Virus record (IMG/VR): IMGVR_UViG_3300021425_000096
Span: 1-34,401 of that record
Reading direction: 5' to 3' (one strand)
DNA: 34,401 nt
Origin: a virus
Each line of letters opens with the position of its first letter. The first letter of the stretch is position 1. Made by a program: the position numbers and the translations under genes. Shown piece after piece: positions 747-24,564 of the stretch. The notes beneath the pieces were generated by a model that was not told the DNA's origin, made no database searches, and worked only from the letters and a program-made list of their open reading frames with translations.

Positions 747-765
747 TTTAACGTAAAACGTTAAA
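747..765. repeat. Palindrome TTTAACGT-AAA-ACGTTAAA upstream of hsp20
   Basis: A perfect 8-bp inverted repeat with a 3-nt centre. It overlaps the 5' part of the late-promoter-like octamer at 760-767 and shares bases with the longer hairpin arm at 761-769. It could be an operator or an RNA hairpin that competes with the longer fold. Confidence 0.6.
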
Positions 766-767
766 TA
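760..767 (+). promoter_or_regulatory. Late promoter-like octamer (GTTAAATA)
   Basis: Matches the cyanophage form of the T4 late promoter (NATAAATA) at 7 of 8 positions. If transcription starts about 6 nt downstream (near 773), an ATG at 776 would be almost leaderless, whereas the ATG at 818 gets a normal leader. The octamer lies inside the 5' arm of the hairpin that pairs with the hsp20 ribosome-binding site. Confidence 0.5.
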
Positions 768-815
768 AGAATGTGATGCCTAACGGGTCACATGCAAACG
801 TCGCTTATTTAAGGA
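761..815 (+). promoter_or_regulatory. Long hairpin hiding the hsp20 ribosome-binding site
   Basis: TTAAATAAG (761-769) is perfectly complementary to CTTATTTAA (804-812). The latter overlaps the Shine-Dalgarno AAGGA (811-815) of the ATG at 818. Inside it a second stem pairs ATGTGA (771-776) with TCACAT (788-793). RNA started upstream would fold and occlude translation; RNA started at about 773 would lack the outer 5' arm. Pairing is read directly from the sequence; the regulatory role is inferred. Confidence 0.55.
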
Positions 816-817
816 CA

Positions 818-1222
818 ATGACTAATATCACATGGGAACACTATACCCCTTACTCGATTGGATTCGATGAAACATTCAGCAGACTTGAAGCTCTTGCAGG
901 CGGTGGATCAAATTACCCACCTTACAATGTGGTCGCTGGAAACGATGGCAGAACCTTACTTGAGGTCGCTCTGGCTGGATTTGCAAGCGAAGATATTGAA
1001 GTCGAGACTGAACGAAATGTTCTAACGGTTTCTGCTCGCAAAGCACCGCCAGATAAAGAAAGGAAATATTCCCACAAGGGAATTTCCTACAGGACATTCT
1101 CACGCAACTGGCAGATGGCAGATGATGTAGAAGTTGAAGATGTGAAATTTGTAGATGGGTTATTGACAATTACATTGATGAAGCATCTACCAGAGAAACA
1201 GAAGCGTAAAAAATGGTTCTAA
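818..1222 (+). CDS. hsp20: Small heat-shock protein Hsp20
   Basis: 134 aa with an alpha-crystallin domain: YPPYNVVAGNDGRTLLEVAL near the domain start, then the strands ending in FVDGLLTITLMKHLPE. Small heat-shock proteins hold unfolding proteins in ATP-independent complexes, and hsp20 is a signature gene of T4-like cyanophages. Upstream in-frame starts exist (GTG 773, ATG 776), adding PNGSHANVAYLRT. I chose ATG 818 because it has AAGGA just upstream and suits the late-promoter position, although that spacing is short (2 nt). The gene is isolated between regulatory elements rather than embedded in an overlapping operon, and ends with a strong terminator. Confidence 0.9.
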   Translation: MTNITWEHYTPYSIGFDETFSRLEALAGGGSNYPPYNVVAGNDGRTLLEVALAGFASEDIEVETERNVLTVSARKAPPDKERKYSHKGISYRTFSRNWQMADDVEVEDVKFVDGLLTITLMKHLPEKQKRKKWF

Positions 1223-21070: not shown

Positions 21071-21144
21071 GACTCAATAGCTCAGCTGGACAGAGCAACT
21101 GCCTTCTAAGCAGTCGGTCGTAGGTTCGAATCCTACTTGAGTCG
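21071..21144 (+). tRNA. tRNA-Arg (UCU)
   Basis: Acceptor GACTCAA pairs with TTGAGTC. The D-arm has AGCTCAGCTGG, the anticodon stem is ACTGC/GCAGT with loop CTTCTAA (anticodon TCT), and the T-arm has GGTTCGAATCC. Reads AGA/AGG. CCA is not encoded directly after the discriminator G. Confidence 0.96.
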
Positions 21145-21147
21145 CCA

Positions 21148-21230
21148 GTCGGTATGGCGGAATTGGTAGACGCGCTGGGTTTAGGTTCCAGTGTCCTTGC
21201 GACGTGGAGGTTCAAGTCCTCTTACCGACA
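21148..21230 (+). tRNA. tRNA-Leu (UAG)
   Basis: Acceptor GTCGGTA pairs with TACCGAC. Anticodon stem CTGGG/TCCAG (one wobble) with loop TTTAGGT gives anticodon TAG. A variable arm follows and the T-arm is GGTTCAAGTCC. 83 nt, class II as expected for leucine. It begins 3 nt after tRNA-Arg. Confidence 0.95.
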
Positions 21231-21232
21231 TT

Positions 21233-21304
21233 GCCCGAATAGCGCAGCGGTAGCGCACCTCCTTTACACGGAGATGGTCGGGGGTTCGAATCCCTCTTCG
21301 GGCA
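21233..21304 (+). tRNA. tRNA-Val (UAC)
   Basis: Acceptor GCCCGAA pairs with TTCGGGC. D-stem GCGC/GCGC; anticodon stem CCTCC/GGAGA (mostly paired) with loop TTTACAC (anticodon TAC); T-arm GGTTCGAATCC. It begins 2 nt after tRNA-Leu. Confidence 0.95.
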
Positions 21305-21332
21305 TTCTCACTAAGAGGTTAAATGCTAAAAA

Positions 21333-21581
21333 ATGCTAACAGCAAGATGCAAAGTTTGTCGCAGAGAACTGACAAGCACTAGCAAAGTTCAGTTCTGTGG
21401 TTGTCCTAATCAGATGAGGGTTGTAGATGACATTGTTGGAGCAGTTGATTTAGGGGAGGTCGTTCTAGTCAATCATGAAAAGAATATTAAATATAACGGG
21501 ATTCTAACAGAAAGTGACCTAAAATACCAGGAAGACCGACGCAAACGAAAGGTCCGACGACTTGAATTTGAGGAACGCTAA
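21333..21581 (+). CDS. Small cysteine-containing protein, probable zinc ribbon
   Basis: 82 aa. N-terminal CKVCRRELTSTSKVQFCGC has CxxC and CxC spaced as a small zinc-binding knuckle, followed by beta-rich DDIVGAVDLGEVVLVN and a charged C-terminal helix with DRRKRKVRRLEFEER. I recall similar short proteins in T4-like cyanophages, but no function. ATG 21333 has AAGAGG upstream at a long spacing. It lies between tRNA genes and is joined to the next gene by a TAATG overlap. Confidence 0.75.
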   Translation: MLTARCKVCRRELTSTSKVQFCGCPNQMRVVDDIVGAVDLGEVVLVNHEKNIKYNGILTESDLKYQEDRRKRKVRRLEFEER

Positions 21582-21787
21582 TGATCAATCTGGACGCCCG
21601 CTACCATTCTTACCTTCACACTAAAAAATGTTTTAATATTCATGGTCAGTGTGAAAATGTAATTGGGTATGGATGGACAGATGATGGTCTTACGATCGAT
21701 GGATATTATGTCTTGACAAAGAACTATAAACTGTACTATAATCTCGAAGAACAGTTTGTCCGCATGGAAGAATGGCAGAGTGGTTGA
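21581..21787 (+). CDS. Small hypothetical protein overlapping tRNA-Ser
   Basis: 68 aa, begins MINLDARYHSYLHTKKCFNI and is rich in aromatic residues (YYVLTKNYKLYYNLEE). GAGGA precedes the ATG, and the stop codon of the previous gene overlaps it by one base. The last 22 nt lie within tRNA-Ser, so the mRNA and tRNA precursor compete for those bases. A perfect sigma-70 promoter for tRNA-Ser is embedded in this reading frame. Function unknown. Confidence 0.68.
   Translation: MINLDARYHSYLHTKKCFNIHGQCENVIGYGWTDDGLTIDGYYVLTKNYKLYYNLEEQFVRMEEWQSG
21713..21742 (+). promoter_or_regulatory. Perfect sigma-70 promoter for tRNA-Ser/Pro
   Basis: TTGACA (21713-21718), 18-nt spacer, TATAAT (21737-21742). Predicted start near 21749, about 17 nt before tRNA-Ser. 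Confidence 0.8.
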
Positions 21788-21851
21788 TTGCACCAGTCTT
21801 GAAAACTGGAGAGGTTCGTAGCCTCCGCGAGTTCGAATCTCGCTTCTTCCT
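21766..21851 (+). tRNA. tRNA-Ser (UGA)
   Basis: Acceptor GGAAGAA pairs with TTCTTCC. Anticodon stem CCAGT/ACTGG with loop CTTGAAA gives TGA. A long variable arm follows, and the T-arm is GAGTTCGAATCTC. The discriminator would be T, unusual for serine, and CCA follows at 21852-21854, directly before tRNA-Pro. The 5' end overlaps the preceding reading frame. Confidence 0.95.
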
Positions 21852-21854
21852 CCA

Positions 21855-21928
21855 CGGGGTGTAGCGCAGTTTGGTAGCGCGGTTGCTTTGGGAGCAATAG
21901 GTCGCAGGTTCGAATCCTGTCACCCCGA
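21855..21928 (+). tRNA. tRNA-Pro (UGG)
   Basis: Acceptor CGGGGTG pairs with CACCCCG. D-stem GCGC/GCGC; anticodon stem GTTGC/GCAAT (one wobble) with loop TTTGGGA (anticodon TGG); T-arm GGTTCGAATCC. It abuts the tRNA-Ser 3' CCA with no spacer. Confidence 0.96.
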
Positions 21929-24270: not shown

Positions 24271-24492
24271 CTAGCCCTGGTCGGGATGGGTTTCACGACC
24301 CCTCGGGTTTCCAGTTTTTCCATAAAAACTGGTGGTGCGGATGGGACTCTCTCCCGCCTGGTTTCTTGCTTCCAGTCAAAGAGCAAGTGGTGGATCCAAA
24401 TGACCCCTTCCGTGTGGCTGATTTCCTGTTTTGCAGTTAAACTAAAACAGGTGGCGTGCATGTGTCCATGGGGATTGACCTCCCCATTTTCT
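24271..24492. ncRNA. Array of hairpins, candidate structured RNA
   Basis: A roughly 220-nt stretch with no convincing protein gene and visibly more G+C than its neighbours. Perfect or near-perfect stems: CCAGTTTTT/AAAAACTGG (24311-24332), CTTGCT/AGCAAG (24365-24387), CCTGTTTT/AAAACAGG (24425-24451), and ATGGGG/CCCCAT (24468-24487), plus shorter GGG/CCC stems at 24288-24300 and 24343-24355. The three T-rich or TTGCT stems are each preceded by TTTC and followed by GTGG, so the array reads as repeats of one module with covarying stems. It ends 5 nt before tRNA-Gly. Strand and function cannot be decided. Confidence 0.65.
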
Positions 24493-24564
24493 GCGGGTGT
24501 AGTTCAGCGGTAGAACGCTATCCTTCCAAGTTAGATGTCGTCGGTTCGATTCCGATCGCCCGCT
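24493..24564 (+). tRNA. tRNA-Gly (UCC)
   Basis: Acceptor GCGGGTG pairs with CGCCCGC (one G-T). D-stem GTTC/GAAC; anticodon loop CTTCCAA gives TCC; the anticodon stem CTATC/GTTAG has one mismatch; T-arm CGGTTCGATTCCG. Separated from the other five tRNAs by 2.5 kb. I saw no sigma-70 promoter of its own. Confidence 0.94.

Follow-up and report, generated by a model that had tools for sequence, protein, structure and literature searches.

ROSE-like RNA thermometers are defined by a U(U/C)GCU sequence that is imperfectly paired to the Shine-Dalgarno sequence (SD) with a predicted bulged G; they comprise two to four hairpins, the last of which holds the SD (PMC3669281, PMC11342760, PMC11182007). In the two-hairpin leader of Pseudomonas ibpA (RF02523, ROSE_3; Krajewski et al. 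2013, PMC3669281), thermoregulation is conferred by hairpin II alone, while hairpin I stays folded. The ROSE elements of B. japonicum hspA and E. coli ibpA likewise carry the SD in the 3′-most hairpin with U(U/C)GCU and a bulged G, but comprise three to four hairpins in leaders longer than the phage leader described here. The Synechocystis hsp17 thermometer also precedes a small heat-shock protein (sHSP) gene and masks the SD within a short leader, but by a single hairpin; for Anabaena variabilis, PMC4166951 cites a ROSE-like element.

Among phages, thermometers have been described for lambda cIII, SP-beta blyA (fourU) and the sigma-70 gene of one gut Caudoviricetes phage (fourU) (PMC11182007); these are not ROSE-like and do not control a chaperone. 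By contrast, the leader described here precedes a core gene of marine T4-like phages and is conserved along with it. The core set of marine cyanomyoviruses numbers 25 genes, among them hsp20, for which capsid scaffolding has been suggested as a role (PMC3037559). Here, based on sequence comparison, we propose with a probability of roughly 0.77 that the hsp20 leader (~773-817) of a marine cyanophage is a two-hairpin ROSE-like thermometer behind a T4-type late promoter. A literature search that covered few subscription journals found no report of a thermometer before cyanophage hsp20; on the literature covered, this would be the first phage thermometer of the ROSE-like kind and also the one with the widest distribution. 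A heat-sensing leader would tie hsp20 to temperature stress during infection and make this tie directly testable.

The hsp20 locus and its probable late promoter

The window, namely the whole of IMG/VR record IMGVR_UViG_3300021425_000096 (34,401 bases, one strand), covers part of the genome of a T4-like marine cyanophage; at this locus it is 87% identical to its nearest named relatives, S-H9-1, S-RSM4 and S-WAM2. The gene order is gp62, named from the annotation in close relatives, then regA, then hsp20. The best NCBIfam model for the phage Hsp20 is IbpA (6.9e-25), with a score under the model cut-off. An earlier reading of the window from its letters alone, hereafter the sequence-only reading, had placed a long hairpin over the hsp20 promoter and SD, and its 5′ arm is included among the features below.

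285-710: regA, with a Pfam Translat_reg match
760-767, + strand: T4-type late promoter octamer GTTAAATA, at -13 to -6 by analogy with T4
761-769, + strand: 5′ arm of the outer stem of the sequence-only reading, overlapping the late promoter and unsupported as an RNA arm
773, + strand: predicted late transcription start (G773, plus or minus one or two bases), the sixth base after the octamer, as in T4
771-793, + strand: hairpin I, with bulged G778 and a tetraloop (pairs 771-793 to 777-787, 779-786 and 780-785)
800-816, + strand: hairpin II, the putative SD-masking ROSE-like hairpin, GUC[G803]CUU-AUUU-AAGGAC
801-805, + strand: anti-SD UCGCU, matching ROSE U(U/C)GCU, with bulged G803 (from the sequence and the published motif definition)
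811-815, + strand: Shine-Dalgarno AAGGA, predicted to be paired in hairpin II (from the sequence; conserved in leaders)
818-1222, + strand: hsp20, an IbpA-type sHSP (Pfam HSP20, 1.1e-15)
1231-1254, + strand: intrinsic-terminator-like hairpin 3′ of hsp20

In S-RSM4 and S-SM2, a further intrinsic-terminator-like hairpin lies between regA and the hsp20 promoter and leader. Therefore, with terminator-like hairpins after hsp20 and, in these two phages, after regA, hsp20 appears to form a unit on its own. S-WAM2 has an extra gene of 687 bases (L003, 804-1490) separating regA from hsp20, and retains the promoter region and the leader of hsp20. Elsewhere in the window, Rfam identifies the wcaG RNA (RF01761), a known candidate cis-regulatory RNA of cyanophages, at 24303-24401 (+) with 95 bits, and six tRNA genes at 21071-21928 and 24493-24564.

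A T4 late octamer occupies positions -13 to -6, and by this rule the predicted +1 of the window (octamer at 760-767), like that of most relatives, is the 5′ base of hairpin I. The TAANTA core is invariant and stands at a fixed distance from hairpin I in 30 relatives. Among the 153 distinct leaders without an extra hairpin before hairpin I (type A), the best octamer ends 8-10 nt upstream of the bulged G of hairpin I in 122, and it is exactly TATAAATA in 39; an octamer of the TATAAATA kind is conserved, with fixed spacing, ahead of the predicted RNA start. A late promoter motif reported for S-PM2 is NATAAATA (PMC2984593). The late octamer named by the sequence-only reading is accordingly present as a conserved and positioned element, and the conserved spacing supports a T4-type late promoter with a predicted start near 773.

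An additional hairpin before hairpin I occurs in S-CAM4, ACG-2014e, Sf-CH1b and S-PM2 and is absent from the window clade. This extra G+C-rich hairpin, situated between the late octamer and hairpin I in L004, L006-L009, S-PM2 (L093) and S-CAM1 (L094), and exemplified by GUGAGAG...CUCUUAC around GGGGCGG/CCGUCCC, looks like a whole RNA module inserted or deleted.

Pairing around the Shine-Dalgarno sequence

The sequence-only reading held that an outer stem masks the SD in a long RNA and that late RNA from ~773 escapes it, following T4 genes e and soc, in which the ribosome-binding site is masked in early RNA. Its letters are as claimed: TTAAATAAG (761-769) is complementary to CTTATTTAA (804-812) at every position (9/9), with the late promoter inside the 5′ arm, and AAGGA (811-815) lies ahead of ATG 818. 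In the window, the calculated energy of this stem also equals that of hairpin II (-5.4 vs -5.0 kcal/mol at 25 °C). However, compensatory changes were sought in 30 relatives aligned without gaps (29 distinct), and zero double-sided changes occurred among the 29 distinct close relatives. Pairing equalled that of shuffled controls (69.3% of cells vs 69.9%), the covariation score was 0.013 vs 0.015 shuffled, and the G-C pair of the stem was retained in 4/29 relatives. The 5′ arm varies (TATAACTA, TATAATTA, TTTAAATA), its forms in relatives being TTAAATAAG, TATAACTAT, TATAATTAT or TTAAATAAT-like, while the 3′ arm is nearly constant. Both arms owe their conservation to other functions, because the 5′ arm is the late promoter and the 3′ arm is part of the SD hairpin; as a masking arm upstream of the late start, the 5′ arm has no conservation of its own, and the e/soc logic does not carry over. 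By the pairing and covariation tests, we rejected the outer stem as a conserved RNA structure and regard the complementarity as a coincidence.

The minimum-free-energy structure of the 121-nt region lacks the outer stem, and the 121-nt fold itself is unremarkable (z -0.73, 42/200 shuffles equally good). At T4 e and soc, too, a late promoter stands near a structured ribosome-binding site, but here the masking hairpin would lie inside the late RNA. Since hairpin II (800-816) is wholly inside it, late transcripts would not escape masking, and the SD that was supposed to be freed in late RNA has a predicted accessibility of 0.002 at 25 °C in RNA from 772. In S-RSM4 and S-SM2, moreover, read-through RNA is not expected as the main form because a terminator-like hairpin precedes the promoter. 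With no covariation, an SD predicted to be paired in late RNA and terminator-like hairpins upstream of the promoter in relatives, masking by the outer stem is very improbable. In the predicted fold of read-through RNA, 735-745 (CCUUAUUAAAG) could also pair with 804-814 (CUUAUUUAAGG).

Masking of the SD is itself supported, but by hairpin II, which the sequence-only reading did not contain and which would pair the SD with UCGCU. In this hairpin G803 is bulged, UCGCU (801-805) faces AGGA (812-815), and compensatory changes keep the pairing; the pattern TYGCTTN{1,6}AAGGA has a single occurrence in the window. Hairpin II reads GUC[G]CUU-N-AAGGAC in the window clade, where the spacing from SD to ATG is short, and CUC[G]CUU-N-AAGGAG in most other leaders. 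Its arms occur in 12 combinations as counted, including CAC/GUG, CUA/UAG and CCU/AGG; CUA/UAG is found in S-CAM1, CCU/AGG in S-CREM2 and CAC[G]CUU/AAGGUG in the S-TIM5 group. In the S-TIM5 type (L098, L264-L266) hairpin II is kept (CCAC[G]CUU/AAGGUGG), and the upstream hairpin is different. Hairpin II is not of the fourU kind, its anti-SD being UCGCUU and the bases opposite AAGGA being U, U, C, C and U.

Hairpin I reads AUGUGAU[G]CC-UAAC-GGGUCACAU in the window. The inner stem ATGTGA (771-776)/TCACAT (788-793), which had been proposed as reinforcing the outer one, is real, but only as part of this bulged-G hairpin (771-793). Across leaders its stems include GGAU/GUCC, GGUU/GACC, UGAU/GUCA, AGAU/GUCU, GAAU/GUUC, GAUU/GAUC and GUAC/GUAC, and its loops are mostly UUCG, also UAAC, GAAA and GUAA, being UUCG or GNRA-like in most.

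From phage records and IMG/VR, 262 hsp20 leaders were collected, and these share the order late octamer, about 5 bases, hairpin I, linker, hairpin II and ATG. In 41 diverse leaders, 92.2% of the cells of both hairpins are paired, vs 78.0 +/- 1.1 in shuffled and 33-56 in slid controls; double-changed cells number 68 vs 21 +/- 3.4 shuffled, and the covariation score of 0.365 (0.134 shuffled) was reached by no shuffle. Double-sided changes fall on 6/8 pairs of hairpin I and on only 3/6 pairs of hairpin II, which has 95.9% of cells paired and an outer pair that is C-G in 25 and G-C in 13 leaders; this commonest change, C-G to G-C, may be a single event. In alignment A1 a few rows (S-PM2, L101, L145, L270) are misplaced, which lowers its counts, and alignment A3 was left out, hairpin II being misplaced in part of its rows. 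A pairing scan recovered the ROSE motif in 255/262 leaders; among its seven misses, four have a wrongly placed start and the rest are L267-L269, of which L267 and L269 were recovered by the covariance model R1 described below. De novo folding at 25 °C predicts two hairpins for the Pseudomonas control as well as for most lineages.

Kinship with ROSE_3 and range of the element

The phage leader shares with the ROSE class an anti-SD with a bulged G, two hairpins with the SD in the 3′-most one, and an sHSP gene downstream, which is the usual setting of the class. In the class, translation goes up with warming as the SD hairpin melts; for the phage leader such melting is predicted from energies. 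When the window leader was searched against all Rfam families, the single match was the thermoregulator ROSE_3 (RF02523; 20.6 bits, E 0.0092), seen only in this permissive search of the short leader and unlisted in a 701-base search at E up to 5; at gathering thresholds, Rfam gave no match at the window hsp20 leader. The alignment covers the full model (1-69) for the window, S-SM2 (24.9 bits), S-RIM44 (21.6 bits), phage C48C1 (26.8 bits) and the Methylophilales phage Melnitz-3 (34.1 bits, E 2.6e-4), and all of these scored below the RF02523 cut-off of 43 bits, that is, outside curated ROSE_3 membership. In the complete S-SM2, S-CREM1 and S-CAM1 genomes the top ROSE_3 match is the hsp20 leader; weak ROSE_3 matches inside the hsp20 coding region of some phages were set aside. 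The Pseudomonas control, the P. aeruginosa ibpA leader, scores 69.2 bits. This leader was taken from L375 (OQ572409.1, 4964-5853), an unverified record named 'Pseudomonas phage Y7', whose ibpA gene and full ROSE_3 leader are probably host DNA.

Reciprocally, R1, a covariance model built from phage leaders only, finds the P. aeruginosa ibpA ROSE leader (E 4e-4). In 18/19 phage records it gives one strong match per genome, always the hsp20 leader (E 3e-10 to 2e-22), with the next best match at E 0.019; some of the 19 records contributed rows to R1 and hence match partly by construction, but the within-genome specificity is independent of that. The S-TIM5 leader was missed by R1, although hairpin II is still present. 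R1 also matches phages of Methylophilales and Pelagibacter and the IMG/VR contigs L267, L269 and L270, the last itself a row of R1, so that the element is found in phages of Synechococcus, Pelagibacter and Methylophilales. By sequence comparison, the two hairpins with their bulged G's are kept by compensatory change, and the element is hsp20-specific and related to ROSE_3.

The resemblance to Pseudomonas ibpA extends from the two hairpins and the IbpA-type gene to the reciprocal model matches. The two leaders share a hairpin I core, GAUGCC...GGGUC with a bulged G, identical to that of ROSE_3 hairpin I, a hairpin II in which U(U/C)GCU faces the SD and a G is bulged, and flanking G-C pairs. They differ in that the phage leader has a T4-type late promoter, not a sigma-32 one, and is shorter in the window (~45 nt vs ~62 in P. 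putida), as is its hairpin II; the UUCG tetraloop is common in the phages, the phage scores lie under the Rfam cut-off, and the phage function is predicted.

In 201 Cyanobiaceae (host-family) genomes there was no strong R1 match, the best reaching 23 bits vs 38-73 for phage leaders, and a host origin of the element was rejected on this ground. The phage protein is closest to IbpA and is poorly matched by the Hsp20 of marine Synechococcus; with the IbpA-like phage protein as query, no bacterial relatives were found in the genome collection, and the leader DNA was not found in plasmids. The sequence-only reading had suggested possible temperature sensing by analogy with cyanobacterial hsp17. Such a role may well apply, but the link to hsp17 is not right, given the ROSE_3 resemblance, the IbpA-like protein and the host-family genomes without a strong match. 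The gene and the sensor may have been acquired jointly from a bacterial source resembling ibpA, a phage promoter taking the place of the sigma-32 one. More broadly, we lean towards the view that marine T4-like phages whose hosts are unrelated (Synechococcus, Pelagibacter, Methylophilales) have in common a viral ROSE thermometer, fused to the phage late promoter at just the point where the late RNA would begin, a portable heat sensor that would adjust the phage's own chaperone during virion assembly independently of host heat-shock regulation.

Proposed mechanism and competing explanations

Based on these findings, we propose that, late in infection, the phage would transcribe hsp20 from a +1 at the base of hairpin I, which could remain folded and help the 5′ end to fold and stay stable. 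While the temperature is normal, the SD would be hidden by hairpin II; upon warming, this weak hairpin could melt and allow the ribosome to bind, and Hsp20 would rise when heat threatens the folding or assembly of phage proteins. The calculated energies in the window are -11.2 kcal/mol for hairpin I and -5.0 for hairpin II at 25 °C, the latter weakening to -3.3 (37 °C) and -2.6 (42 °C). The predicted SD accessibility in late RNA increases from 0.002 at 25 °C to 0.034 at 42 °C, about 9-17 fold, but is still only 3-4% at 42 °C. A shift from 25 to 42 °C is rarely met by marine hosts, and we count this against the thermometer, together with the short SD-ATG spacing of the window clade, the ROSE_3 score under the cut-off and the few double-sided changes in hairpin II. 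Folding energy was set aside as evidence, as it is not discriminating: the 121-nt fold is ordinary, and 10/41 window genes have a lower predicted SD accessibility than hsp20. Energies thus leave hsp20 unremarkable among the window genes, and it is covariation, motif and homology that carry the case.

The same structure could serve a protein controller, either the IbpA-like Hsp20, which would bind its own leader and repress translation, or RegA, which would bind the SD region, with temperature acting only indirectly. An arginine that aligns with R93 of E. coli IbpA is invariant in 11 phage proteins, but is probably common among small heat-shock proteins. The regA gene lies just upstream of hsp20, but the element is kept in S-H35 and S-SM1, where regA is not adjacent to hsp20. 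E. coli IbpA represses itself via the ibpA 5′ UTR (PMC10474464) and the phage Hsp20 is closest to IbpA; in bacteria, however, such control coexists with the thermometer, and a protein controller does not exclude thermosensing, which alone accounts for the U(U/C)GCU stem with its bulged G. We therefore consider control by protein unlikely.

Still less probable is a fixed attenuator with a 5′ stabiliser, in which hairpin I protects the mRNA 5′ end and hairpin II damps translation at all temperatures. It would suit the position of hairpin I at the predicted 5′ end and its very stable UUCG or GNRA-like loops, and it has a precedent, as a 5′-end hairpin stabilises mRNA in E. coli and the same has been proposed for hairpin I of Pseudomonas ibpA (PMC3669281). 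However, a stronger or weaker stem would do equally well for attenuation, which leaves the retention of the ROSE motif and the bulged G unexplained, and the ROSE-like thermometer remains our preferred reading.

Finally, the CTCGCTT block could be read as a PhoB-binding DNA site: a putative Pho box, ATTCAAACTCGCTTAAATA, was predicted bioinformatically for S-PM2d hsp20 in a study of phosphate starvation, but the same study reports that PhoB does not bind and that hsp20 has no phosphate response (PMC10976474). Since the block also lies 3′ of the predicted start and shows the covariation of an RNA stem, we give this reading almost no credence. In S-PM2 (L093) the string ATTCAAACTCGCTTAAATA corresponds to the linker, the anti-SD arm and the loop start of hairpin II, and its conservation would be explained because it is part of that hairpin.
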